IMG/VR virus record: IMGVR_UViG_3300027857_000006
Span: 1-64,000 of that record
DNA from: a virus
Reading direction: 5' to 3' (one strand)
DNA: 64,000 bases
Part shown: in pieces, positions 3,810 to 39,482 of the stretch
How the letters are laid out: each line of letters starts with the position of its first letter
Position numbering within the stretch: the stretch's first letter is position 1
Position numbers and translations under genes: made by a program
Notes under the pieces: model-generated
The model's input: only the letters and a program-made list of their open reading frames with translations
Database searches by the model: none
What the model was told of the DNA's origin: nothing

Positions 3810-4181
3810 GTGGCTTTTGGAAACGCGGGACAGAGCACTAACCCGGTCGGCTACACGCTGACCTTCGGGAAGTACAGCGGTCAGCAGTTAAGCTCAGTTC
3901 CGCTGGACTACGTCGAGTGGTTGGCCGACGACGCGGAGAAGCGTCTGGCCCTCTGGCAAGCCGAGATAAAGCGACGCGAGACGGCCGAGGCGGCTACGGT
4001 ACCCATGTCCGAGGCGTTGGTCGAGGCTGGCTACAAGGCGCTGGCGCAGAAGTACCACCCGGACAAGGGAGGAGACGCGGCAACCTTCCAGGAGCTTGCT
4101 GGTGCTCGCGAACTGCTGCGGGCAACCCTACGTGAACTAAGGAGTCAAGGTGACACGACAACTAACCCATCAAAAGCGTAA
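3810..4181 (+). CDS. DUF3820-like domain fused to a J-domain fragment
   Basis: Residues 16-40 (LTFGKYSGQQLSSVPLDYVEWL) match the DUF3820-type motif of phage and bacterial proteins. Residues 70-105 carry the core of a DnaJ domain, YKALAQKYHPDKGGD, with the HPD tripeptide at 83-85 that stimulates Hsp70 ATPase. The J-domain is short and has no Gly/Phe or zinc region. The protein could recruit host DnaK to a phage process; that is an inference from HPD alone. It starts at GTG 3810 and overlaps the next gene by 32 bases. Confidence 0.75.
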   Translation: MAFGNAGQSTNPVGYTLTFGKYSGQQLSSVPLDYVEWLADDAEKRLALWQAEIKRRETAEAATVPMSEALVEAGYKALAQKYHPDKGGDAATFQELAGARELLRATLRELRSQGDTTTNPSKA

Positions 4182-4752
4182 CGTCGAGCGCGCCCAGCCT
4201 ACGCCGGGCGAGACGCTGGCACAGAGACTGCGGACGTCTCTTGCTTCTAGGTCCTACGGCGGTGGAAGAGGCCTGACGCCGACTAGCGCGCTGTTGCTTG
4301 ACACGTCCAGCAGCATGTCTTCACACATCGGTGCCAACCAGACCAAGATCAGTGAGCTTCGGAAGCTTGCCAACGGTTTCACCGACGTACGCCGGTTCCA
4401 TTTCGGGTCGGCGGTCGAGGAGCTGAAGCCGTCGGACGCAGTTCCTGAGCCGGCCGGTGGAACTAACCTGGCGCTAGCGTTCACCGAGGTCAAGAAGGCC
4501 GGTGTCACGCACGTGGTTCTGATCACCGACGGTCAACCCGACGACGCGCGAAGCGCACTGTACGAGGCTCGCGGACTTCGGGTAGACGTGTTCTACGTGG
4601 GACCCGACCCGCAACCGCCGTTCCTAGCCGACCTGGCCCGGGTGACTGGCGGTTCCTACGGGAAGGCTACGCTGACCGCGCTGAAAGAACTTACGGCAGC
4701 GGTGAAACAGCGTCTTTGTATCGAAGCGCCAAAGGGGGCGATTCAGCTATGA
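4150..4752 (+). CDS. VWA (von Willebrand factor A) domain protein
   Basis: Contains a complete metal-ion-dependent adhesion site: DTSSSMS at residues 51-57 (DxSxS), a GGTN threonine motif and ITDGQPDD. The domain fold is alternating beta/alpha, and the protein is little more than the domain (200 aa). Intracellular phage and bacterial VWA proteins usually form metal-dependent complexes with AAA ATPases or other partners. It starts at GTG 4150 after AAGGAGTCAAG. A second, longer VWA protein lies at 59540-60643. Confidence 0.85.
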   Translation: MTRQLTHQKRNVERAQPTPGETLAQRLRTSLASRSYGGGRGLTPTSALLLDTSSSMSSHIGANQTKISELRKLANGFTDVRRFHFGSAVEELKPSDAVPEPAGGTNLALAFTEVKKAGVTHVVLITDGQPDDARSALYEARGLRVDVFYVGPDPQPPFLADLARVTGGSYGKATLTALKELTAAVKQRLCIEAPKGAIQL

Positions 4753-6875: not shown

Positions 6876-7679
6876 GTGGTAACAGTTGATTCGGTAGTTA
6901 AAAGCGGTAACTTTAACGGGGTGACGTCGTTCTCGTTTGCGAACACGACGGGCACTAACGCCAACCGGGCGGCGTACGTAGTTGTTCTGACGGCTGACCT
7001 TCCGCCGGTGTCGGTGACACTGGGTGGTCAGTCTTTGACGCAGCTCGTCAGCGGAACCGATCCGGTCTACAATATCCACAACGCCTCGGTCTGGTTGCTG
7101 TTAGCGCCTCCGTCCGGGGACGGCACGGTGCAGGTGACGCTGTCGGCTCCAACGCAGTTCCATAGCACGTCGCGTGGGGCTTCGGCCGTGGCCTACAACC
7201 TTTCTGGCGTAGACCAGAGCGCCCCCAACGACGGCACCGCCGTGGTCGCCAACAGTTACTACCAGCAGTCGACTAGCCAGTCGCTGACGCTGACGACGGC
7301 TTCGCCCAACGACCTGGTGTTGTCGGCGATCATGATCTCGGACACTAGCGACGAGGCCAACGTGACGGCCTGGCCCGGGAACGAGGATGCGCTTTACATC
7401 GGCAGCGTCGGTCACGTTTCCCTCTACAGCAGTCAGTCAGATAGTGGACCGGCTGGTTCTAGGACCTTGTCGTGGACCTGGCAGAACACGGAACCGTCCG
7501 TAGCCGTTTCGGTTGCCGTCAAGGCCGCCGCCGCCGCTCCACCGCCCGGCGGCAGTATCGTCTGGTCTTCGGGAACCCTGGCTGCTCGTCCAGGCTCGGC
7601 CCAGGCCGGCGTCCTCTCTCTCTACGCGGCTACCGACGTCAAGGTGCTCTTCTGGTCGCTGGGTGGAGGCTGGTCGTGA
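6876..7679 (+). CDS. Beta-sandwich surface or virion protein
   Basis: The GTG at 6876 sits eight bases after GAAGGGAG. The protein is all-beta with the recurrent pattern NDLVLSAIM...SWTWQN...AVSVAVKAA seen in environmental bacterial surface proteins and phage adhesins. The tail is Ala/Pro-rich (KAAAAAPPPGGS) and leads into a second short beta segment. A protein of the same style lies at 37321-38079 in the virion block, so a tail-associated receptor-binding role is possible. It is coupled to the propeller gene by a GTGA overlap. Confidence 0.6.
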   Translation: MVTVDSVVKSGNFNGVTSFSFANTTGTNANRAAYVVVLTADLPPVSVTLGGQSLTQLVSGTDPVYNIHNASVWLLLAPPSGDGTVQVTLSAPTQFHSTSRGASAVAYNLSGVDQSAPNDGTAVVANSYYQQSTSQSLTLTTASPNDLVLSAIMISDTSDEANVTAWPGNEDALYIGSVGHVSLYSSQSDSGPAGSRTLSWTWQNTEPSVAVSVAVKAAAAAPPPGGSIVWSSGTLAARPGSAQAGVLSLYAATDVKVLFWSLGGGWS

Positions 7680-8845
7680 GCGGCTGGTTTCCCTTCCGGG
7701 TACCGGTGCCCGGGACCGACGACTGGCCGTGTTCCCTCCACGACCCGCAACACACGGGGCGGTCGGCTGACGTCTTGCTGCCGCCACTGCGTCTGCTGTG
7801 GACCTGGCAGAACAACCACCCGTTCGATCTGACCAAGGGCTACAGTGAGACCTGGAATCAGCTTGTGTCGGTCGGTGGACGGTTGCTGGTCAGCGGTGGG
7901 TTGAACAGTAACCGGCTTCTGGCGCTTGGCGAGGACCGGACGCGGGCTTGGGAGGCCGACAACGGTGGCTACACCGAGAGCCAAAGCCCGTTCTACGGTA
8001 ACAACGGCCTGGCAGTCGCCGGAGGCCAGGTTCTCTTCACCAGTACCGACTACAGCTACAGCGTCTCGCTAGCTGACGGGACTATCTCGCCACCTCTCGA
8101 CAACACCAACGGGGAGCCGTCCGGTGGTGCGACCGTTATGCCAAACGGGGACGTCTACCAGCAGTTCGTCGAAACCGACAGTGGGGTCAACGACCTGGTA
8201 CTCTACCACGGTCTGTCCTCGCCGCTGGTGGAGGCCGCACACTACTCTGTCGGCAACGGGACCCTAAACGACGTGACCTTTCGGGTTCCGGCGGTCGATA
8301 GCGGGCGTGTCTACGCGTCGCTGCTAGGCTCGCTGTGCGCCTTCGACGCTGGTACGCTTGGGCTACTGTGGACTGGACCGGCTTCGTCGGGAACGTCGCC
8401 ATGTGCTTCCGGTGGTCGTGTCTGGGTGGCCACTGACTACGGACGCTTCACGGCGCTCGACGGAGCGACTGGATCGGTGATCTGGTCGGTTCAGGTAGCG
8501 GGAGGCCTGGTTCCACTGGTTGACCCGGTAGCCGGGGTGATCTATGTCGGAAGCTCGGACGGGAACCTGTACGCTCTACGGGCTTCGGACGGTAGCGTTC
8601 TTTGGAGCGCTCTGGTTGGTGGTCCGGTAGGCCAACAACAGCAGCCGGCCCTATCGGGAGCCCTTCTCTACGCTCCGGTGTCCGATGGAGTCCTGCGGGT
8701 ATTTTCGACGGACACCGGACGGCTGGTTTACAGTACGCAGGTAAGCAGTCGTCCAATCGGCCCGGTTACGCTTGGGCGAGGACGACTGTACGTCAGCGAC
8801 TCGGCGGGAGTGGTGTACGCCTACCAGCCGGCAGCGGTTCGCTAA
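7676..8845 (+). CDS. PQQ-type (quinoprotein-like) beta-propeller protein
   Basis: At least six blades are visible, with the consensus GRVYASLLGSLCAFDAGT, GRFTALDGATGSVIWS and GNLYALRASDGSVLWS, typical of PQQ_2 repeats. It has no signal peptide and starts at GTG 7676. Bacterial relatives include BamB-like scaffolds and dehydrogenases; dehydrogenase active-site motifs are not evident. In a phage, and next to a beta-sandwich adhesin, it is probably a binding scaffold on the particle or for a host envelope target. That is inference. It is the last gene of the left + strand block. Confidence 0.8.
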   Translation: MSGWFPFRVPVPGTDDWPCSLHDPQHTGRSADVLLPPLRLLWTWQNNHPFDLTKGYSETWNQLVSVGGRLLVSGGLNSNRLLALGEDRTRAWEADNGGYTESQSPFYGNNGLAVAGGQVLFTSTDYSYSVSLADGTISPPLDNTNGEPSGGATVMPNGDVYQQFVETDSGVNDLVLYHGLSSPLVEAAHYSVGNGTLNDVTFRVPAVDSGRVYASLLGSLCAFDAGTLGLLWTGPASSGTSPCASGGRVWVATDYGRFTALDGATGSVIWSVQVAGGLVPLVDPVAGVIYVGSSDGNLYALRASDGSVLWSALVGGPVGQQQQPALSGALLYAPVSDGVLRVFSTDTGRLVYSTQVSSRPIGPVTLGRGRLYVSDSAGVVYAYQPAAVR

Positions 8846-27286: not shown

Positions 27287-27315
27287 AGTGTAGCACAAGT
27301 CCTTTATCTACGCAA
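27287..27315 (-). promoter_or_regulatory. Promoter of the HNH gene, leaderless type
   Basis: On the - strand: TTGCGT (27315-27310), a 17-base spacer ending TTGTGC, then TACACT (27292-27287), then six bases and the ATG. The arrangement is the same as at 40241-40276, with an identical -10 box. Confidence 0.7.
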
Positions 27316-28342
27316 CTATACTTGATGGTGCATCAGTCATGCGATATCGGAACTGACCTTGGAGATTTGGGGCGTCTAGCAGTTTCGCAGCGAACTTGAA
27401 GTTAAACGACACCATCGCGCCGATCACACCCTCGGGGTCCGCGATGTCGGGCTTGCCCTGGATCACGTTGAGCGAGAAGCGCTCCTTGGACGGGTCGCTG
27501 ATGCGCTGCGGTGCACGGCCCGCCAGGTCCACGACGCCATAGGCGTTCTTGCCGAAGACGTAGACACGCCAGTAGTCCACCGAGGACACGGTCAGCGTCT
27601 TGACGTTGGTGTTCTCGAAGAACTTGCAGCCACCCACGTTGGCCACCGCGCCACGATCCTCGTTCTTAATGAAGGCGGACGGGTCCGTGAACTTGTAGAT
27701 GTCCATCAGGCCGCCGGCCGCCGGGTCGTTGACCAGGTCGTACGACACGTAGGGATGGATCACGCCGAAGAAGCTGCCCTTGGCGAGACCGCTGTCCATC
27801 GGCAGGACATCGAGACCCTGCAACTGGTGACGGGCGTTCCGGGCGTCACCGGCCCGGTAGAAGGAGCCAAGGGTCGCCAGGCCAGCACCCGAGGTCGAAG
27901 TGATCTGGGTCGTGTTGGGCGAGTCGATCTCGGTCCGGGTGATCGTGTCAACCACGTAGGCCGCCCGATAGGACAGCATGTCGGACACGTTCTCTACGAC
28001 CGGGTCGATGGCCGTGTCCTTCAAGAAGTCGCTGACGGTCGCGAAGTCGGTATACTGGGAGACGGTTGCCGACACGATGGTCGACGTGACCGCGATGCCG
28101 GTGCCGACCGAACCCTCGAAACCGTCCTTGGCCGTGATGGTGGACGGGACGACGGCGGACGGGATGTAGCGGAACCACTGGACCGTCTTGCCGGACTGTT
28201 TGGGGATCGAGTCCATCATAGCTGCTTCGCTGAAGATGAACTTGCGCTTGAGGTTGTCCAGGGCTCTGGTCTTGTAATAAACCGTCGCGAGGTGGGAAAT
28301 GGACGGAGTCGCTGTGGTAATACTTGCTGGGGTGTAAGCCAT
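27308..28342 (-). CDS. Major capsid protein, N4-gp56 family
   Basis: The N-terminal VYYKTRALDNLKRKFIFSEA, MMDSIPKQSGKTVQWFRY and the following ITAKDGFEGS segment are characteristic of the N4-gp56 (HK97-fold) capsid family. The length of 344 aa is typical. It forms the icosahedral shell. The gene is flanked by an intact HNH gene downstream and a decayed HNH gene upstream, both between it and other head genes. The family name does not imply N4 biology: no giant virion RNA polymerase is in the window. Confidence 0.9.
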   Translation of the reverse strand: MAYTPASITTATPSISHLATVYYKTRALDNLKRKFIFSEAAMMDSIPKQSGKTVQWFRYIPSAVVPSTITAKDGFEGSVGTGIAVTSTIVSATVSQYTDFATVSDFLKDTAIDPVVENVSDMLSYRAAYVVDTITRTEIDSPNTTQITSTSGAGLATLGSFYRAGDARNARHQLQGLDVLPMDSGLAKGSFFGVIHPYVSYDLVNDPAAGGLMDIYKFTDPSAFIKNEDRGAVANVGGCKFFENTNVKTLTVSSVDYWRVYVFGKNAYGVVDLAGRAPQRISDPSKERFSLNVIQGKPDIADPEGVIGAMVSFNFKFAAKLLDAPNLQGQFRYRMTDAPSSIVA

Positions 28343-30031: not shown

Positions 30032-32041
30032 CTACGAGCCCCCTCCCAGTAGCGAAGCCACGCCGCTGCCAGGCTGAGTTCCTTGTGGCGCGGTTGCCGG
30101 TGCTGCTACACCGGCTGGAGCGAGTCCAAGAGACGCGTCCACACCACCAACAAGCTTGAGGATCTCGATAGCCTGGTCGCCTTCCTTGGCCGAAGCCGCA
30201 ATGGCCGCGCTGTCCTTCTTGGCCTGGGCTTCGAGCTGTGCGATGCGCTCTCGCTCCTGCGACTGTTGCTGCATCGTCTGCGCCTTGAGCTGCGCGTCTG
30301 GGGAAGGTTGTCCCTGTCCCTGCTTCTCCTGGTCGTTCATCGGACGAATCAGGTTGTAAGCTCGCCTGGTTCCCGTGGCATCCTGGATCATCCGGAAGAA
30401 CTCGTTGAAGTCGATGGTCTGACCGCCCTTGGCCAGTTGTCCTAGGAAGGCACCGTTCATCAGGTACTGAGACAGGAAGGGTGCTAGGGACTGCAAGCGC
30501 GACTGGGTAAGCATCCGCGAGGACGCCTTGACCCGGAACTTCACCGGACTTCTCAAGGCACCCGGGTTGACCGAGGTAACTCCACCCGTGGGACTTAAAC
30601 CGGCCATGGAGCCGGACGCCGACGCGTGGTACGAGTCCATGGCGATCATCTTGGAAAGCATCGGGACGATCATGTAGTCCTCGATCAGCTCCACGATGGC
30701 CTGCAAGCGTGTCGTCGGACCGGCGGTCTGGGCCTGGATGCCGGTAGCGGTACGAGACGCGTTTGACCGGATCGGCATACCCTGGCTGATCATGTTAGTG
30801 ACACCAGTACGCTTCTCGCTAGAGGACTCTAGCCACTGTAGCTCCTGCCAGCCGTCCTTCGTCACGCCGTTCGGCGGGAAGAAGATCATGTCCTCCTTCG
30901 GCTTTTCTACCTCCCAGATTTGACCGGGACGCATGATACTGCTTCCCTGGGCCATGCTGGCCGAACGGGACCTGGCTCGCGGCGGATTTAACATCAGCGA
31001 CAGTTCGTCGAGGTGCCCGTTGAGGATCGCCTGAGCGTACTTCTGGTTCCCCTCTAGGGCGTCAGGTATGCCCATCCCGTAAAATCGACCCGGCATAATA
31101 TAGCACGGTGCACCGCAGTAGGTAATAAATCCGTACGGGTTTAGCTCGTTGTAGGCCACCCAGCGACGCTGGATCGTCCAGATGATCCGCGACCGGCTAT
31201 AGTAACGCATCACCTCCAGCAGCTTGTTCGGTCCAATGTCGGTGCTGTCGTCGTATCCTGGCCGCCAGATCACGTTCCGGTAGGCTTCCTGGTTCTGCTT
31301 CGTCAGGTCCGCCGTGTCGGCCGGCCGCTGGTCGGCCATCGACCGAAGAACCTCCCTCGGCGGTAGCTTGATCCCAGGCGATCCCCGTAGCGACTCCAGC
31401 TCGTCCAGCGACATAAAGTCACGGTGGATCACCGAGCGGCTGTCGTCCGTCAGCGGCGTCGGGCACCCGGGGTCCAGGTAGATGTCGCGCGTGTCCACCC
31501 AGGACACCGTGGGTTGCCCGGTGTCGCCATCGTGTTCGACATTGACAAATCCGTTCCCGTAGAGTAGCGTCTGTATAACCGCAAGCCGGATCTCGTTCCG
31601 CGCCGTGTTTCCGTAACGGTCGTGAGGTGTCTCCAGCAGGTACATCAGACGTTCTTTCTGCTGCCTGGCCTCGTCAACCGTGGTCCCCTGAACCGGGTCG
31701 CACTCGAACCACTCGTCGTCCGCGAAGAGTGCGTTCATGATCACCGGGTAGGCGCTTTCGACCTGATCGAAGCTGATCGGCACCCCCAGGGACGACCTGG
31801 CAACGCGAGAACCCTCCCAGAAACGCTGCGGCATCCAGCCGACAAAGAGGGCGTCGTCCGTGTTCCAGCGCAGGTCGTGGTTCCGGTAGCGCCAGACGCG
31901 GTAGCGTTCGTAGTCGCTGTTAACCCGTGCCAGGGCGATGCTGTCGTTGATCGTTTGTAGGCTGAAGCGGTCGCTGGACCGATCCAATAGGTTGGCCTCT
32001 GGGACCCCCCCCACTTCGCCGGTATGATTAAACTCTGGCAG
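30032..32041 (-). CDS. Portal protein
   Basis: About 670 residues. Motifs typical of podovirus portals are visible: WMPQRFWEGSRVARSSLG, the IQTLLYGNGFVNVEHDG wing, WVDTRDIYLDPGCPTPL, YGMGIPDALEGNQKYAQAIL, and a C-terminal Gln/Glu coiled coil (MQQQSQERERIAQLEAQAK). It forms the dodecameric DNA channel. The start is uncertain: CTG 32041 has GGAGC seven bases before it; no ATG or TTG fits, and a later GTG lies beside a run of eight G. Confidence 0.85.
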   Translation of the reverse strand: MPEFNHTGEVGGVPEANLLDRSSDRFSLQTINDSIALARVNSDYERYRVWRYRNHDLRWNTDDALFVGWMPQRFWEGSRVARSSLGVPISFDQVESAYPVIMNALFADDEWFECDPVQGTTVDEARQQKERLMYLLETPHDRYGNTARNEIRLAVIQTLLYGNGFVNVEHDGDTGQPTVSWVDTRDIYLDPGCPTPLTDDSRSVIHRDFMSLDELESLRGSPGIKLPPREVLRSMADQRPADTADLTKQNQEAYRNVIWRPGYDDSTDIGPNKLLEVMRYYSRSRIIWTIQRRWVAYNELNPYGFITYCGAPCYIMPGRFYGMGIPDALEGNQKYAQAILNGHLDELSLMLNPPRARSRSASMAQGSSIMRPGQIWEVEKPKEDMIFFPPNGVTKDGWQELQWLESSSEKRTGVTNMISQGMPIRSNASRTATGIQAQTAGPTTRLQAIVELIEDYMIVPMLSKMIAMDSYHASASGSMAGLSPTGGVTSVNPGALRSPVKFRVKASSRMLTQSRLQSLAPFLSQYLMNGAFLGQLAKGGQTIDFNEFFRMIQDATGTRRAYNLIRPMNDQEKQGQGQPSPDAQLKAQTMQQQSQERERIAQLEAQAKKDSAAIAASAKEGDQAIEILKLVGGVDASLGLAPAGVAAPATAPQGTQPGSGVASLLGGGS

Positions 32042-32054
32042 TGTTTTAGCTCCG

Positions 32055-32231
32055 TTACTGCTTGAAGGTAAAGGACTCGATAGGAGTCTGGCGAAGCAGG
32101 TTGACGACGCCCACAAGGGCACCAGCCCCAACGGTCTTCAGGTTCACCTGGCCGCTAACGTACGAGGTCACGGCACCAGACACGGCTGCCGTCAGTAGCG
32201 AGTTTAAAAGCTTTTTCCAGTCGAAGCTCAT
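32055..32231 (-). CDS. Small membrane-type protein, 58 aa
   Basis: The ATG at 32231 has GGGAG upstream and the late-promoter motif 20 bases before it. The sequence begins MSFDWKKLLNSLLTAAVSGA and continues with a second hydrophobic part (GAGALVGVVNLL), so one or two short membrane segments are likely. It precedes the portal gene. The size and composition resemble small holin-like proteins, but the position does not decide it. Confidence 0.6.
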   Translation of the reverse strand: MSFDWKKLLNSLLTAAVSGAVTSYVSGQVNLKTVGAGALVGVVNLLRQTPIESFTFKQ

Positions 32232-32285: not shown

Positions 32286-32546
32286 ATGCTTCCAAAACTT
32301 TCCGTTATCGACGAAAACCACCACCTGGAGAACGGTCAATGGGTTTCCGTACTGATTGAGGTCGAGGTAGTGTCCCTACACTTCGCCAGAAATACCATGC
32401 GTGTCAGATCGGTCGATAAAATCTCGTACGACGGCGTCTGTAAGCCAGAAATCCACTCGTTTGACATGCCGAGCGACCTCTTTTGGGAGACGTACAATTT
32501 CATCCGATACCCGAAAGACTACCCTATAGCCCCCCAGTTGCGTTAA
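32286..32546 (+). CDS. Hypothetical protein, 86 aa, on the opposite strand
   Basis: A + strand gene between the portal and terminase genes, convergent with terminase (23-base overlap at the 3' ends). The ATG at 32286 has no ribosome site and lies six bases after a -10 box. The protein is soluble and beta-rich (GQWVSVLIEVEVVSLHFARN). No family. The separate promoter suggests a different expression time from the surrounding virion genes. Confidence 0.5.
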   Translation: MLPKLSVIDENHHLENGQWVSVLIEVEVVSLHFARNTMRVRSVDKISYDGVCKPEIHSFDMPSDLFWETYNFIRYPKDYPIAPQLR

Positions 32547-34311
32547 AGAAGTCCGTCCAGCCGTTGACTGACTGGTCGTGGGCACTGGCGTAGGCTCCTT
32601 CACCGTTCACCTTGTCGGCCTGAGCCTTCTCCATCAATTTCTTCAGTCGAGCACGGACCTCGGCGTCGTTGTCCGCCTGGCTGTATCCAGTCTGCTCCCC
32701 GTGCTGAGGTCGAGCAACCTCGCGCCCGAGCCAGGTCTTGCCGACGAACTGGTCGGCCAGGGCGTCCACCAGGTCGTCCGTGTTTCCCTTGGGGAAGTGC
32801 GACAGCTCAACCTTGAAGTGTTCTAGGCACGACAGGCCGCCGCCCTTGCCCTCGGCCACGGGGCCGGCAAAATAGATCTCACCACGCTTGTACCATGGCT
32901 GTAGCGTCTGCGCTATACGCTCCTCCTTGGACTTCTGGTTGTCGGGGGTGATGAAGGCAAACGGCAGGTAGACCCCGTTCATGTCCTCGTAGCGCCGTAT
33001 CGAGGTCTTTAACCCCCTAACGTAGCCGGTCTCTTCAATACGGATTGAGCGAGGACGCCACACTCGGTACACGTCAAAGATCTGGCTGATCAGTTCGTCC
33101 GGCAGGTACTTACCGTGCCGTGCGTCGACCACGTAGCAACGTCCCTTGGCGTCCCAACCACAGGTTAGAACAACCGAGTAGTCGCTTGAACGCTTCTGGG
33201 TCTCGGCCGTGTCGACTGAAGTCGTGTAGTAGGCCATAGGAACCTTTCTAAGGTCCTCGGGCGTCTTGGTCCGAAAGAGCGTCAAGGGGAAGTACTGCTG
33301 CTCACTGCTTACCGGGTTATTCAATTGCTGACAAGAGAACACCTCTCCGTCGTCCTGCTGCATCAACCGTAGCTCGTGTACTGGGAACTTGGCCGGGAAC
33401 CAGGAGACCTTGTTGCCCTTTTCGTCAAGTAGATCGTCTAGTTCGCGTTCCTCGGGAAGGAAAGTGTAACGTCCGTCCTTGACTTTCTTCTTGTAGACGC
33501 CGCGTACGTGAATCGACCACTGGCGGTCCTCGACTGCCGACCGGCGATGCTTGTCGATGATGTCGGTGTACAAGTCAGCCTGGTGCCAGCAGGTTCCCTC
33601 GACGTCAATCCAGGACGTGGGTTTAACCAGGATGTTCTTGAACGTGTTGAAGTTGTAGATAATCTTCCGACACTGCTCCTTCGTCGCCGTATTGGTCCCG
33701 TCTACCACGTCGGTGAACTTGATGACGTCGCAGTGCATTCCGGCCACCGACGATTCCATCGAGGCGACGGCGACCGTGCTCTCCTTGCGCTGCTTTCGCT
33801 CCCGGTTTGGTACCGTGAACTTGGTGCGGTTGCCGGCGTCCTTCTCGCGGAAGCAGTACTCGGGGTAGAGATCCCGTAGCACCCGTCCATAGACAAAGTG
33901 GCTCTTTAGCTCGCTTAGCATCTCCTCGGCCGTCTCCTGGCGCGCGTGGACCACAAGGATCGCAACGTCCGGGTAGTTAAGTATCCACTGGACCGTGTGA
34001 GCGATCACGTTCAAGGTTGTCTTGTAGAACCCGCGCGGGTCAAGGATGAGGCGACGTCGTCCCTCAGGAAGGCTGTCCATCGGAACCCACGGCTTCAGGT
34101 ACTTGATCTCGGTAGGTCCGACAAAGTCGTACTGGTGACGTAAGTGAGGCGGTGGGGCAGTGAAGTGCTGTAGCTTATCGGCCAGTGGTCCGTGGACCTC
34201 TTGGTCAACGTCCTTGTAGCCAAGAACGTGCTTGGCTAGCCACAGAAGGTCCGTTCGACCTCGCCAGCGAGCCTCGGCAAGCTTGTCTAGTTGTACGTCT
34301 CGCAACACCAC
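32524..34311 (-). CDS. terL: Terminase large subunit
   Basis: The packaging motor. The ATPase has Walker A DPRGFYKTT at residues 91-99 and a Walker B-like DVIKFTDVVD at 195-204. The RNase H-like nuclease begins at SVDTAETQKRSSDYSVV (about 370) and ends with GNTDDLVDALADQF. The N-terminal WRGRTDLLWLAKHVLGY segment is common to this terminase group. The 595-residue length is normal. The GTG start at 34311 overlaps a small upstream frame. It is encoded upstream of the portal as expected. Confidence 0.92.
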   Translation of the reverse strand: MVLRDVQLDKLAEARWRGRTDLLWLAKHVLGYKDVDQEVHGPLADKLQHFTAPPPHLRHQYDFVGPTEIKYLKPWVPMDSLPEGRRRLILDPRGFYKTTLNVIAHTVQWILNYPDVAILVVHARQETAEEMLSELKSHFVYGRVLRDLYPEYCFREKDAGNRTKFTVPNRERKQRKESTVAVASMESSVAGMHCDVIKFTDVVDGTNTATKEQCRKIIYNFNTFKNILVKPTSWIDVEGTCWHQADLYTDIIDKHRRSAVEDRQWSIHVRGVYKKKVKDGRYTFLPEERELDDLLDEKGNKVSWFPAKFPVHELRLMQQDDGEVFSCQQLNNPVSSEQQYFPLTLFRTKTPEDLRKVPMAYYTTSVDTAETQKRSSDYSVVLTCGWDAKGRCYVVDARHGKYLPDELISQIFDVYRVWRPRSIRIEETGYVRGLKTSIRRYEDMNGVYLPFAFITPDNQKSKEERIAQTLQPWYKRGEIYFAGPVAEGKGGGLSCLEHFKVELSHFPKGNTDDLVDALADQFVGKTWLGREVARPQHGEQTGYSQADNDAEVRARLKKLMEKAQADKVNGEGAYASAHDQSVNGWTDFFNATGGL

Positions 34312-34396
34312 CCCTCACTCCCGGTAGGTCAAACTGGACCCCAAAGATTTCTTCGTAAAGGTCCTCTTCAAAGTCGCTTAGGGTCACTGTATTCAT
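34205..34396 (-). CDS. Small frame overlapping the terminase start
   Basis: The ATG at 34396 begins a coding-like acidic segment (MNTVTLSDFEEDLYEEIFGV), but the last half overlaps the terminase gene in another frame and looks like shadow sequence. It may be a short gene, or its first 28 codons may once have belonged to an N-terminal extension of the terminase. Confidence 0.3.
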   Translation of the reverse strand: MNTVTLSDFEEDLYEEIFGVQFDLPGVRGGVARRTTRQACRGSLARSNGPSVASQARSWLQGR

Positions 34397-34631
34397 GCCG
34401 TAGCTCCAGCAGTGCTTCCACCGTGCGCTCCCGTAGTAGCTTAATCTCCTGCGTAGCCTCCCAGGCCGGCCGACTACCGTTGTTGTAGTGATCAACCAGC
34501 AGTAGCCCTTCGGCCCGTGAGGACGCCGCCAGCCAGTTCTCCAGAAGCAGTGCTACCGATCCAGCAGCCGCTTCAGGTCGCGTAGCGACAGCCAGCGCGT
34601 CAGCCGGCCCGTACCGTTGCAATGTTGACAA
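34368..34631 (-). CDS. Hypothetical protein, up to 87 aa
   Basis: The C-terminal 60 residues are helical and coding-like (AWEATQEIKLLRERTVEALL). The start at TTG 34631 overlaps the zinc-finger gene by 79 bases and may lie further downstream. It is placed just before the terminase gene, where small terminase subunits often lie, but no DNA-binding motif is evident. Confidence 0.4.
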   Translation of the reverse strand: MSTLQRYGPADALAVATRPEAAAGSVALLLENWLAASSRAEGLLLVDHYNNGSRPAWEATQEIKLLRERTVEALLELRHEYSDPKRL

Positions 34632-34750
34632 GTGACCTCCTGACGAGCCCAGCCGCTCTGGCCGCTAACTGTGGCTGGCGTGCAGTCCGGTGTCGGACCC
34701 GGCGTTGAGCCGGGTGCTACAGTGACGTACGATGTAGACGGCTGGTTCAA
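34553..34750 (-). CDS. Small protein with CxxCxGxG zinc motif
   Basis: The TTG at 34750 has a strong GGAGGGG six bases upstream. The C-terminal part has CQHCNGTGRLTRW followed by a basic helix (LRDLKRLLDR). The DnaJ-type CxxCxGxG motif suggests a single zinc knuckle. The first half overlaps the C-terminal catalytic motif of the phosphatase gene in another frame. Confidence 0.45.
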   Translation of the reverse strand: MNQPSTSYVTVAPGSTPGPTPDCTPATVSGQSGWARQEVTCQHCNGTGRLTRWLSLRDLKRLLDR

Positions 34751-35375
34751 GTTTCCCCTCCGAGGCCATGTTCACCGGCGTCATCGACCAGAGTCGTCCG
34801 GTCCCCGTCGGCCGGAAGCACCACACCGATCCGGGACGCCCAGCCTCGTACTCGCGCGACATGTCGGCGGTGTCGACGTCCATGAAGGGCGAGAGGCCAC
34901 CTTTCACCCAAGCCATAAGTAAACGAACTACGCGGTGGTGCGTAAGGATACCAAGCTTTAGCTTCTTGTTGGCGTTCCACTCGGCCATCTGCTTCCCGAT
35001 GTAGGGCAGCGCCCGCCACCTGAAGTCGTCAAAGGACTCGCCGCGCTTGCCGCTTAGCGGAGACTTACCTGGCGGCGCTACGTCCGGAAGGTACTTGATA
35101 AAGGCAGCGAGCTTTGGCTGCGCCTCGACCGTAGGCTCCCCCTCAAGGTCCCCTAGCGACCAAGATAGGATGTCGTGTGACGGCGTCTCAAGATCGGTAG
35201 ACGGGTTGGCTTTAACAAGGTAGTCGGCTGTCTCCTTGGCCCTCTTGGCCGTTGAAAGGTAGAGACAGCTTAGACCGCCCTTGCGCGCAAAGTCCTCGCC
35301 AATCTGACGAGCTTCACCACGCCCTTTAGGCGTTAGCGGTCCATCGGCTTGTCCTCTAACGGTAGCTTCGGTCAT
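34665..35375 (-). CDS. Histidine phosphatase superfamily protein, apparently circularly permuted
   Basis: The body matches the phosphoglycerate-mutase/histidine-phosphatase fold from just after the catalytic loop: VRGQADGPLTPKGRGEARQ (6-24), STAKRAKETADYL (Arg 45), LGDLEGEP (74-81), RGESFDDFRWR (111-121) and LTHHRVVRLL (His 146 or 147). The canonical N-terminal strand and RHG motif are missing from the start, yet AVYIVRHCSTRLNAG occurs at residues 212-226, at the C-terminus, with catalytic Arg 217/His 218. A TAG stop lies eight codons upstream of the ATG in frame, so no N-terminal motif is lost. Confidence 0.75.
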   Translation of the reverse strand: MTEATVRGQADGPLTPKGRGEARQIGEDFARKGGLSCLYLSTAKRAKETADYLVKANPSTDLETPSHDILSWSLGDLEGEPTVEAQPKLAAFIKYLPDVAPPGKSPLSGKRGESFDDFRWRALPYIGKQMAEWNANKKLKLGILTHHRVVRLLMAWVKGGLSPFMDVDTADMSREYEAGRPGSVWCFRPTGTGRLWSMTPVNMASEGKLEPAVYIVRHCSTRLNAGSDTGLHASHS

Positions 35376-35399
35376 GCTAGTTGCAGGTGCAGGAACCGT

Positions 35400-36980
35400 C
35401 TAGTTAATCACCTGGAAGTTGACGCACATCGGGTTTGCGGTCAGCGCGACGTCCACGCCAATCGTAAAACTGGTGCCCGCCGAGCGTGCCGTGACACGCG
35501 GAGGTCCTACGATCAGCAGGCTTTGCGTGTTGCAAGTCACTCCGAGCTTCGCACCAAGACCCTGGTCTTCAGTTACCATGATCTCGCTGTTGGCACCCAC
35601 GGCCGTCGTATTCACTACCAGCGTGGTTCCACCGGAGGCGATAGCCACCGATCCAACGATAGTTGCCGCGCAGACGGCCGGCGAGGCTGAACTGGTACAG
35701 CCCGCCCCGCCAATGTTGGCGGCGTGAATTGACGCCAAGCCACCTGTCCCGCCGAAGTACACGTCCGTCACCGAGGAGTTCCCGATCACACCGGTGTTAC
35801 TAGCGTTGACGGTCGCGTTGTATCCGATGGCAATGGCGTTCTGCACCTGGGTAGCAGAACCAATGCCGGTGCAAGGACCGAGTAGCGTTGTCTGCGCAAC
35901 CGTGTTTACGTCGTTGGCTGCGTTCGCACAAGGGTTCGTCCCGGCATATCCACCGGCCACACCCGCGCCCGCCCAGGCCCCGGCGAATAGGTTGGAACCG
36001 CCAGTCGTCATGTTGGTTCCGGCCGCGAAGCCTAGGCCGGTGTTATCGTTGGCCCCGCCGCCACTGCCGACGTTAAGGAAGGAGGTTGCGCCGACGAACG
36101 TTGACCGTGAGTATGTGGAGTTTGCCCGTCCGGTGTGTCCGCCGAGACAGGTATTGAAGTGCCCAGTCAACAATCCGCCGCAGGCGACAACACCAACAGC
36201 GGTATTTTGTCCGTCCGTCGGGTCATTGGTTCCAGGGTAGGACCCAAGTGCGCCAGCCCCGAATGCGCTGTTGTACTGCGATGTCGCCAGAGGGCTGAAT
36301 ACGCCGAGTGCGCCCGCCCCGAAGGCTGTCATAAAGTTTCCCACTGGCGCTAAGGTGGACTTCGCCATGTTAAGCGCTCCAACGCTGCCAAACACGGTAG
36401 TGTTCTTGCCGATGAACCCAACGGGAGTCGCGCCCTGATAGATCAGGTTGCTCGTGGTATTCTCGATCCCCCAGATCGGGCCGGTTGAAAACGGCGCGGC
36501 GGTATTGTCCGTGTAGGTGGTCGCCGTATTGTTGGCGATTGTGGTTCCTGCCGTCAGTCGGTAGTAGAAATTGGTCAGGCCGGTCGCGGCATAGATGTTG
36601 CGACCGATCACCCGGTTGTCGGTGCTCACCGGCACGTTGGTGATGTTCACGACGTTGCTGGATGCGCCGACGATTACAATTCCGTCGCAAGATTGGGAGC
36701 CGGTTCCAGTGTAGGGTCCGAGGTTGGTCTCGCCCTGCGAGGTCACGAAGGTGACGCAGTAGTACCGCGTCCCGGTGACGTTGCCCGCCCCACCTAGCGC
36801 CGTGGTGACGCCAGTTGAAGGGGCGGCTACCTGGTTAAAGGTTATGTTTTGGTTGACGCCGAGCGGCCCCAGGAAGTTGGCCGTGCCGTTGGTGACGGTC
36901 TGTCCCTTCGCCGCAGTGGCGAGGACTGTGGCGTAGATCGCGGCTTTGATGGCGTTGTGGTAGATTCGTGAGTTTGTCAT
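35400..36980 (-). CDS. Fibre-like protein with YadA-head-type repeats
   Basis: 526 residues. The N-terminus is hydrophobic (AAIYATVLATAAKGQ). The middle holds repeated short motifs of the type FGAGALG, NTAVG, NTCLGGHTG and NAIAIGYNATV, like the left-handed beta-roll of trimeric autotransporter heads. The C-terminus is beta-rich. Trimeric receptor-binding fibres use such repeats. The stop lies 25 bases before the phosphatase start; the start overlaps the upstream gene by ATGA. Confidence 0.6.
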   Translation of the reverse strand: MTNSRIYHNAIKAAIYATVLATAAKGQTVTNGTANFLGPLGVNQNITFNQVAAPSTGVTTALGGAGNVTGTRYYCVTFVTSQGETNLGPYTGTGSQSCDGIVIVGASSNVVNITNVPVSTDNRVIGRNIYAATGLTNFYYRLTAGTTIANNTATTYTDNTAAPFSTGPIWGIENTTSNLIYQGATPVGFIGKNTTVFGSVGALNMAKSTLAPVGNFMTAFGAGALGVFSPLATSQYNSAFGAGALGSYPGTNDPTDGQNTAVGVVACGGLLTGHFNTCLGGHTGRANSTYSRSTFVGATSFLNVGSGGGANDNTGLGFAAGTNMTTGGSNLFAGAWAGAGVAGGYAGTNPCANAANDVNTVAQTTLLGPCTGIGSATQVQNAIAIGYNATVNASNTGVIGNSSVTDVYFGGTGGLASIHAANIGGAGCTSSASPAVCAATIVGSVAIASGGTTLVVNTTAVGANSEIMVTEDQGLGAKLGVTCNTQSLLIVGPPRVTARSAGTSFTIGVDVALTANPMCVNFQVIN

Positions 36981-37324
36981 TTCACCAATTCTCCGTTAGG
37001 GTGTATGTCTCCACCGGCACTCAGGGAGTGAAGGGCGTCCTCAATCAGATTTTTCATAGCTGCCTGATCCTCTTTGTCCATCTTGAACCGAAGAAACTTC
37101 CCATTTCCCAGCGCCAAAATAAATAAGTGGTTGGCCGAGGCAACATCCGCCCCAGCATCTTTACCGATAAAAATGTTGCCGTTGCCGTGTACGAGGTCTC
37201 TACCGGCATTCAATCCGATGAGGATGCAGTTGGTTACGTCCATGTGCCTGTTGGGGGCCTGCGGCATCAATGGAAATGTGGCCAGTAATAGAGCAAATAG
37301 CAGGCACAATCGTTTGACCTTCAT
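36977..37324 (-). CDS. Exported-type protein with a beta-roll repeat, 115 aa
   Basis: A classical signal peptide (MKVKRLCLLFALLLATFPLM) precedes one or two beta-roll units (NCILIGLNAGRD, NIFIGKDAG) and a helical C-terminal tail (EDQAAMKNLIEDALHSLS). The repeats match those of the next gene, so the two may form one fibre. Overlaps both neighbours by ATGA. Confidence 0.5.
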   Translation of the reverse strand: MKVKRLCLLFALLLATFPLMPQAPNRHMDVTNCILIGLNAGRDLVHGNGNIFIGKDAGADVASANHLFILALGNGKFLRFKMDKEDQAAMKNLIEDALHSLSAGGDIHPNGELVK

Positions 37325-38079
37325 CTCAAATCCTCCCCTTGAATCATCATGATTGAAGGCTGGCCAACGGGAGCCGCCTTGAAACTCACAATCTTCGCCG
37401 CCCGATCAGAGCCCAAGCTGAGGTTGGAGGTCTGCGTTCCAGAAGAAGCTACCCACCCAGTCACCCCGCTCATAAATCCGCCGCCAGAGATGGAGTCTAG
37501 TTGGGTAAATGGGCTATTTGTCGTTGCCGCACCGGTTTGGTTTCCGCCCGCAGTGAGAACTAGATATCCATTCGTTGCGGGACTAGTAAGGCTCACGGTC
37601 AGGGTTCCAGAACCAGTGCCGTGCGCCTCAGCCTGTTGGTCCAGCGGATCGCTGGTAGTGAGGGTTCCGGTAGCGGCTGCTATTTCCATTGCGGCGAAGG
37701 AACTTGTGCAGGCCAAAGTTACGGAATGAGACGCCCCGGTCACCAGTGCGCCGCCGCCTGTCTTGGCGTAGGCGTAGAAGGTTAGGAGTCTTGTATTGCC
37801 GCCACTTGGAGCATTGGTCGCTAAGGTCAATTGGTTCCAGGCGTTTGCGTTGGACGTGGCCCCGACTGTATCACTAATGGTGCAGGCGGTGGCTTGGAAG
37901 GATGTCACAGCGACAAACAGCATGGATGCGCCAACGGTTGACGCGCCATAGGTAGCCGTCCCGCCATTAGCTCCCATAGCCGGTGTGGTCGCCCCGCCGA
38001 TCCCGGTGTGGTTGGTCTGAACGCCGACGGATGCAAAGAGTGTGGCGCAGATCAGGAAGATTCCAAGTCGCCGAGTCAT
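37321..38079 (-). CDS. Exported-type beta-sandwich protein
   Basis: A signal peptide (RRLGIFLICATLFASVGVQ) is followed by a 220-residue beta-sandwich with the pattern GASMLFVAVTSFQ...NGYLVLTAGG...IVSFKAAP, similar in style to the protein at 6876-7679 and to many bacterial surface proteins. Probably a secreted or particle-surface adhesin. Coupled to the upstream gene by overlap. Confidence 0.55.
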   Translation of the reverse strand: MTRRLGIFLICATLFASVGVQTNHTGIGGATTPAMGANGGTATYGASTVGASMLFVAVTSFQATACTISDTVGATSNANAWNQLTLATNAPSGGNTRLLTFYAYAKTGGGALVTGASHSVTLACTSSFAAMEIAAATGTLTTSDPLDQQAEAHGTGSGTLTVSLTSPATNGYLVLTAGGNQTGAATTNSPFTQLDSISGGGFMSGVTGWVASSGTQTSNLSLGSDRAAKIVSFKAAPVGQPSIMMIQGEDLR

Positions 38080-38900
38080 TGCCTTTTGATCCTCACAAAG
38101 TACTGACTAGCCCCGCTGATCGTCAACGGTGTGAAATCTAGAGAGCCGTTGTTAGCCTGCGTCGGTGTGCCGCTCAGAGTGCAGGCGCTATACGTGCCGT
38201 TTCCACACGTGCAGGTCGCCCCACTCAGAATGGACGAGCCGCCCGTCGTTGCGGCGTTGAGCGCAAAACTGGCAACGTTTGCCTTGCACTCGACGCTAGA
38301 GATGGTAATGGTGGCACCGGTCAGGTTAGAGCAGATCCCTAGTTCCGTGTTGTCCGTAGCCAGAGTCACCGAGTTGGTCCCGACGCTTCCTACACCGAAC
38401 TCGCACGGCTGAACGGCTTGCGGTCCGGTTGCCCCGACAGGTCCCTGTAGACCTACTCCACCCGAAGTTACGATCACCCGGCCGGCCTGCGGCGCAGCAA
38501 AGGTCGCTACGATCTGGAATGTCACGGGATCTACGGTGTAGGGAACGTTAAGCTGGTTGGCTGGACTAGCGTTGTCGTAGAAGGCCACAAAGAGCGAGGT
38601 CGTTGCAAACCCGTGGGTCGCTTCCGGAATCGTCAGCGTCAAAGGGCTAGTGACGTTGAAGGTAGCGTTGTAGGACGAAGAGATCGAAGCCGCTATAATT
38701 TGACCCGACGAGTTAGTCCCAACGAAGCTAGCCGAAATAGGAACTGAAGCACCGTTGATAGTTGTTGCGTTGGTCCCGGTAGAGAAGTAGTCAAGCTGAC
38801 CCGTGAACGGGTTGAAGGTCCAGGCGCTATTCAACGTCGAGCTTAAAAGAAGGGCCATCGAGACGATGGCCACGCCGGTCCAAAGTGTTCTTGATCGCAA
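38076..38900 (-). CDS. Exported-type protein with short collagen-like segment
   Basis: An N-terminal hydrophobic segment (LWTGVAIVSMALLLSSTL), then WTFNPFTGQLDYFSTG, a tail-fibre opening seen in many environmental proteins, beta-rich domains and a brief collagen-type run GLQGPVGATGPQ near residue 155. The C-terminal half has several Cys (NVASFALNA, SGATCTCGNGTYSAC). Likely a trimeric fibre component. Confidence 0.55.
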   Translation of the reverse strand: MRSRTLWTGVAIVSMALLLSSTLNSAWTFNPFTGQLDYFSTGTNATTINGASVPISASFVGTNSSGQIIAASISSSYNATFNVTSPLTLTIPEATHGFATTSLFVAFYDNASPANQLNVPYTVDPVTFQIVATFAAPQAGRVIVTSGGVGLQGPVGATGPQAVQPCEFGVGSVGTNSVTLATDNTELGICSNLTGATITISSVECKANVASFALNAATTGGSSILSGATCTCGNGTYSACTLSGTPTQANNGSLDFTPLTISGASQYFVRIKRQ

Positions 38901-38909
38901 GCTAGGCTC

Positions 38910-39482
38910 CTAGTACTTCCCGCGCGAATCGCAGGCGTCGGCGTACTGCATCCCGCTCCCGAAGGCCGGTGCTCCGTTAGTCAGCGCAAAGTAGACCGAC
39001 GACAACAGGTTAGACGGGTTCGTTAGCACCTCGATACCCCACACCTTGGCCGACGTCAGCGGGTTTACCGTAGTGATCGTCATGTCCGTGTAGGTGGCGT
39101 TGGTTGTACTCGGCACGGTGATCGTCAGCGTGTTGGCGTCGGCTGCGGTCACAGCGCTAAAGGTCCCGTTAAGGGTCGTGGTTGCTGATCCGGTGATCAC
39201 AAGCCTGGCTCCAACGTAGAGCTTGTGCCCGGTCGCGGTAATAGTCGCCGTGGTGTTACCGGTGACCACGATGTTGGTGAGGTTGCCGGCCGCTACCGAG
39301 TAGGTCGTGGTGGGCTGGATGGCCTTAGCGGCGCAGATGTACTGGAGATTATTGGACCCATCGTAAAATAGCAGCTTTACCCACGGCTCGTTGGGAAGGG
39401 CCGCAACCTGGTTTGTGCTCTGGCCAGACTGAGTCCAGCCAAGAGACGCCGCGAGTCCGGCTAGCAGCAGTAGTTTCTTCAT
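38910..39482 (-). CDS. Exported-type beta-rich protein, 190 aa
   Basis: Signal peptide MKKLLLLAGLAASLGWTQSG followed by Ig-like beta structure (GHKLYVGARLVITGSATTTL, DANTLTITVPSTTNATYTD). It ends with a two-Cys tail (YADACDSRGKY). Its position at the promoter-proximal end of the fibre cluster suggests an appendage role. Confidence 0.5.
   Translation of the reverse strand: MKKLLLLAGLAASLGWTQSGQSTNQVAALPNEPWVKLLFYDGSNNLQYICAAKAIQPTTTYSVAAGNLTNIVVTGNTTATITATGHKLYVGARLVITGSATTTLNGTFSAVTAADANTLTITVPSTTNATYTDMTITTVNPLTSAKVWGIEVLTNPSNLLSSVYFALTNGAPAFGSGMQYADACDSRGKY

Follow-up and report, generated by a model that had tools for sequence, protein, structure and literature searches.

The 64,000-nucleotide stretch of viral DNA analysed here (the window), part of a 65.9-kb virus record, carries a 236-codon open reading frame whose product is most probably a naturally circularly permuted branch-1 histidine phosphatase (Table 1). 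The product lacks the first strand and RHG motif at its front and carries a homologous segment with the catalytic Arg-His pair behind the body, in one coding frame and as a predicted strand. The initial annotation had proposed such a permutation on the basis of this reading frame and of the motif AVYIVRHCSTRLNAG at residues 212-226; frame, product and motif were confirmed, and the proposal is well supported by sequence statistics and coding frame and in part by structure prediction. From the same sequence comparisons and models, we consider that the permutation probably arose once, in a podovirus-like phage, and that the enzyme is probably functional.

Genome setting and the phosphatase body

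The genes for the major head protein (27308-28342), the portal (30032-32131, matching PHROGs 1216 and 332) and the terminase large subunit (32524-34311) were located in the window, and the type of portal suggests that the virus is a podovirus-like tailed phage. The phosphatase gene is flanked by a run of probable tail or surface protein genes and by small ORFs that precede the terminase. Directly upstream lie about five consecutive genes (35400-39482, minus strand), several of whose products start, as judged by eye, like signal peptides (for example MKKLLLLAGLAASLGWTQ); virion proteins of phages do not usually start in this way. The plus strand encodes, at 7472-8845, a PQQ/BamB-like beta-propeller protein (PF13360, E=3.8e-32), which would not be expected in a phage record.

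Pfam detected a single family in the product, the branch-1 histidine phosphatases (PF00300, E=1.9e-17, 64 bits against a curated cut-off of 21.7), with residues 4-159 aligned to profile positions 15-160. The front lacks positions 1-14, where strand 1 and the RHG motif normally sit, and the body holds all that a normal enzyme has after its RHG strand. By alignment, Arg45 is the second Arg (KRAxET) of the phosphate pocket and His146 its second His (SHG), and Arg121 and the GES motif are kept. In body sequence, fold, Arg45, His146 and GES the protein is like other branch-1 members (PF00300; PhoE, 1h2e/1ebb; CobC; phosphoglycerate mutase), among which PhoE is its best sequence match in the PDB (E about 4e-6). 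It differs from them in the C-terminal place of the first strand and RH motif, in RHC instead of RHG (the glycine being Cys219) and in Ser71 at the position of the general-acid Glu, which precedes the GdxEG motif. The earlier statement that all motifs of the fold are present therefore stands for RH, Arg45 and His146 and fails for the general acid and the RHG glycine. As the general-acid Glu is also absent from SixA and some other branch-1 members, it is not strictly defining for the branch.

A missed N-terminus had been excluded on account of the in-frame TAG upstream of the ATG, and this argument was sustained. The TAG is the stop of an upstream 526-aa gene, and no RHG motif was found in the upstream frames; a missed N-terminus or a frameshift was accordingly rejected. 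Recoding of TAG is unlikely, since more genes in the window end in TAG than in any other stop (30 of the 62 checked) and tRNA-Met was the only tRNA found; with no suppressor tRNA, a recoded TAG was likewise rejected. There is no clear ribosome-binding site before the phosphatase ATG. The upstream gene, the phosphatase and an 87-aa ORF downstream are all read in a single frame (34368-36980, minus strand) with nothing but TAG stops between them, so that stop readthrough would fuse all three; we judged the shared frame to be a coincidence.

Table 1. Features of the phosphatase locus, in window coordinates
Feature	Coordinates	Strand	Basis or remark
Candidate permuted histidine phosphatase gene, 236 aa, TAG stop included	34665..35375	minus	ORF and translation
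Body, residues 1-200	34776..35375	minus	PF00300 positions 15-160, alignment, helix/strand order
Arg45 codon	35241-35243	minus	in body
His146 codon	34938-34940	minus	in body
Linker, residues 201-211	34743..34775	minus	mean pLDDT with versus without tail
Putative relocated first strand and catalytic RH motif AVYIVRHCSTRLN, residues 212-224	34704..34742	minus	PSSM, Pfam, model
Arg217 codon	34725-34727	minus	in putative relocated strand
His218 codon	34722-34724	minus	in putative relocated strand
C-terminal end AGSDTGLHASHS, residues 225-236	34668..34703	minus	predicted disordered; coding-like codon usage
TAG stop of upstream gene	35400..35402	minus	in frame with phosphatase, 8 codons before ATG
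Possible relic of a second gene copy, different frame, TPGPTPDCTPATVSGQ	34632..34700	minus	weak, post hoc, may be chance

The C-terminal strand

The catalytic Arg-His is found near the C-terminus as VRHCST (residues 216-221); the part missing from the N-terminus sits at the other end of the protein, and its original place holds no further copy. When the tail was moved to the front in silico, the PF00300 match extended to position 1 (1-160) and rose from 64 to 79.8 bits, the tail-first order adding 16 bits. With a profile built from 18 normal-order relatives, the body scored 67.3 bits and the tail gave a second, separate match to positions 3-16, and the tail-first order reached 88.0 bits versus 71.5 bits for the native one. 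We also scored the segment AVYIVRHCSTRLN with a position-specific matrix (PSSM) of N-terminal RHG strands, where it ranked first among the 85,702 six-frame 13-mers of the window and was equalled by 0.012% of 100,000 shuffled tails. This top-ranked 13-mer falls in the one gene that is without that piece.

The coding frame is open across the joint of body and tail, and codon usage continues through it. The tail scores +6.2 for codon usage, inside the 5-95% interval seen for real genes (3.3 to 23.5) and far higher than wrong frames, 95% of which stay below about -3. A 65-aa ORF (34553-34750, minus strand) overlaps the tail DNA in another frame; its TTG start is preceded by GGAGGGG and it contains CQHCNGTG, a zinc-ribbon-like motif. 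A family search with this ORF returned no match, and its second half has a poor codon score.

The structure of the native sequence was predicted with AlphaFold2 from an alignment with 14 relatives, whose rows were trimmed so that residues 212-236 remained uncovered. The model (pLDDT 78, pTM 0.76) has strands at residues 37-41, 141-145, 184-189, 196-200 and 213-217, of which the last, in the tail, is confident (mean pLDDT 90 for the block 211-220) with no alignment rows over it; the last 14 residues (segment 223-236) are predicted to be disordered, with pLDDT below 50. In a control model of the chain cut after residue 212 (pTM 0.74), the mean pLDDT of residues 201-210, in the linker between the former C-terminal and N-terminal strands, fell from 89 to 54, that of 191-200 from 81 to 71 and that of 181-190 from 82 to 74, and strands 141-145 and 184-189 were each one residue shorter. 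In this fold the RHG strand is normally flanked on one side by the strand that ends in the second His and on the other by the opening strand of the C-terminal pair; here these expected neighbours are strands 141-145 and 184-189. These changes in confidence and strand length are those that docking of the tail in its native place would give. A fold search of the PDB returned 150 matches at E <= 0.001, the best being phosphoglycerate mutases and PhoE, with TM about 0.6 by sequential alignment, and in a viral structure library the matches were likewise phosphoglycerate mutases, together with histidine phosphatases (TM roughly 0.4-0.6).

Relatives and the origin of the arrangement

Relatives were gathered by exact-peptide and alignment searches, which yielded five distinct phage relatives in IMG/VR (L007, L010/L011, L012, L014 and L015) and ten bacterial loci, all in normal order. 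The phage phosphatase genes lie at 3854-4558 in L007, at 4812-5540 in L010 and around 4000-4600 in the other three. The two that were scanned, L007 and L010, both match PHROG 12933, to which the window protein has a weak profile match (E=4.6e-9) and with which it has W-x-L-G in common (SWSLG versus TWNLG). In L010 the gene comes after that of the terminase and before that of the portal, close to both as in the window, and a phosphatase in the packaging region is therefore not unique to the window. The phage relatives keep the N-terminal RHG and have the second catalytic His replaced (LSG or CSG, in LSGS and CSGS), whereas the window protein keeps this His (His146); from their sequences, these relatives may be inactive or may employ another chemistry. 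The general-acid Glu is missing on both sides, with Thr in the phage relatives and Ser71 in the window protein.

The search for homologues with the permuted order, which the initial annotation had suggested, came back negative. No second permuted sequence was found in IMG/VR or phage records, none of the close relatives searched for through the phosphatase protein, TerL and the tail is permuted, and about 1,190 bacterial genomes from three phyla (those of Marinomonas, Paenibacillus and a Bacteroidia MAG; strict cut-off at E 1e-7 or 1e-8) gave no one-piece match. The profile of the joint between the old C-terminus and the RHG strand, made of 11 rows with the window protein among them, matched the window protein in one piece at 55.7 bits, its own row included, and matched normal enzymes in two separate pieces. 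In a tree of the bodies, the window protein was placed with support of 39 or less. As every relative checked, phage and bacterial, is in normal order, the permutation appears from these comparisons to be a derived state, known so far from the window phage only. Homologues with an N-terminal RHG and no C-terminal copy had been named beforehand as grounds against a permutation. All homologues found are of this kind, which makes the permutation lineage-specific and not absent: the window protein itself is without the N-terminal strand.

Under the duplication model of permutation, a tandem repeat is expected to lose the front of its first copy and the end of its second (PMC3320104). The initial annotation had offered, as an alternative, that the tail is the start of a second, truncated copy, and this fits as an evolutionary route, since a duplicate trimmed at both ends gives exactly the order observed. 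A possible relic of such a duplication lies in the DNA after the tail, where another frame gives TPGPTPDCTPATVSGQ, which resembles VPAPATSMTEATVRGQ around the present gene start. Scores as high occur in about 1% of genome windows and, at the DNA level, in 1.75% of shuffles; the comparison was post hoc, the frame concerned is part of an ORF that could itself be a gene, and the relic is only a hint.

Rival readings, proposed mechanism and significance

The main rival to permutation is a decaying tandem duplicate, in which a first copy without its first strand and a second copy without the rest form a non-functional fusion with a vestigial tail. It would agree with the single occurrence, with the weak DNA similarity between the region after the tail and the gene start (a fraction of about 0.01, post hoc) and with the lack of a clear ribosome-binding site. 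We nevertheless regard it as unlikely, as the frame is open with good codon usage throughout, and Arg45, His146, Arg121 and GES are kept, though the second His is gone from the phage relatives in normal order. Moreover, the two pieces are trimmed at nearly the same point, which leaves one complete set of parts with no redundancy, and the fold with the tail is predicted confidently. It is considerably less likely that the tail strand completes the active site of a partner in a domain-swapped dimer. The linker of about 11 residues could also permit swapping, but the single-chain prediction already has a confident tail strand and a confident linker. An error of assembly or sequencing in this metagenomic contig would account for the arrangement being known from one contig, with no second copy of the region found; the junctions are however without repeats, and frame and codon usage run unbroken across the joint, which makes this highly improbable. 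Least likely is chance, a phosphatase fragment with an accidental RHG-like tail, for instance from the overlapping next gene: the 65-aa ORF does overlap the tail, but its frame has a codon score of -1.1 against +6.2 for the phosphatase frame, and the tail is the best of all the 13-mers, in the one gene needing that piece. Circular permutation is thus supported over chance by sequence statistics, coding frame and structure prediction. Weighing against it are its single occurrence, the lack of a clear ribosome-binding site, Ser71 in place of the general-acid Glu and the 65-aa ORF that runs across the tail DNA.

Under circular permutation, an ordinary ancestral gene would probably have been duplicated in tandem, after which copy 1 lost its beginning and copy 2 its body. 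The new N-terminus would lie within the loop found behind the RHG motif in ordinary enzymes, and the old N-terminal strand with its Arg-His would come after the old C-terminal strand through the linker. In the folded chain, the C-terminal strand would occupy the centre of the sheet, placing Arg217 and His218 next to Arg45 and His146 in a putative phosphate pocket with the usual two His and two Arg. His218 would be the phosphorylated nucleophile; Arg217, Arg45 and His146 would hold the phosphoryl group, and water would release it. Without the usual general acid, the enzyme may favour substrates whose phosphoryl group is easily cleaved from a good leaving group, or another residue may supply the acid. 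It is likely, going by the alignments and the model, that the permutation is a functional one in which the central strand bearing the nucleophile is translated last, so that the active site would form only after the whole chain has been made.

Natural circular permutation by duplication has been described in saposin/swaposin and in DNA methyltransferases (PMC3320104), which the window protein resembles in the order of its parts and in the predicted route. Within the histidine phosphatase superfamily, no described permutation was found in the open-access library searched, in line with what the initial annotation had stated. In our control genomes, branch-1 histidine phosphatases were present in 13 of 14. 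These enzymes occur in nearly all organisms, and their N-terminal RHG is used for recognition. Permuted enzymes may be missed or misjudged when annotation relies on this motif or on sequential structure alignment. A permutant would be surprising for specialists in the superfamily, and the present one is a single uncultured example. If the permutation is true, it signifies that the central catalytic strand can come from the other end of the chain and provides a natural test of folding order and of the placement of termini in the histidine phosphatase fold.
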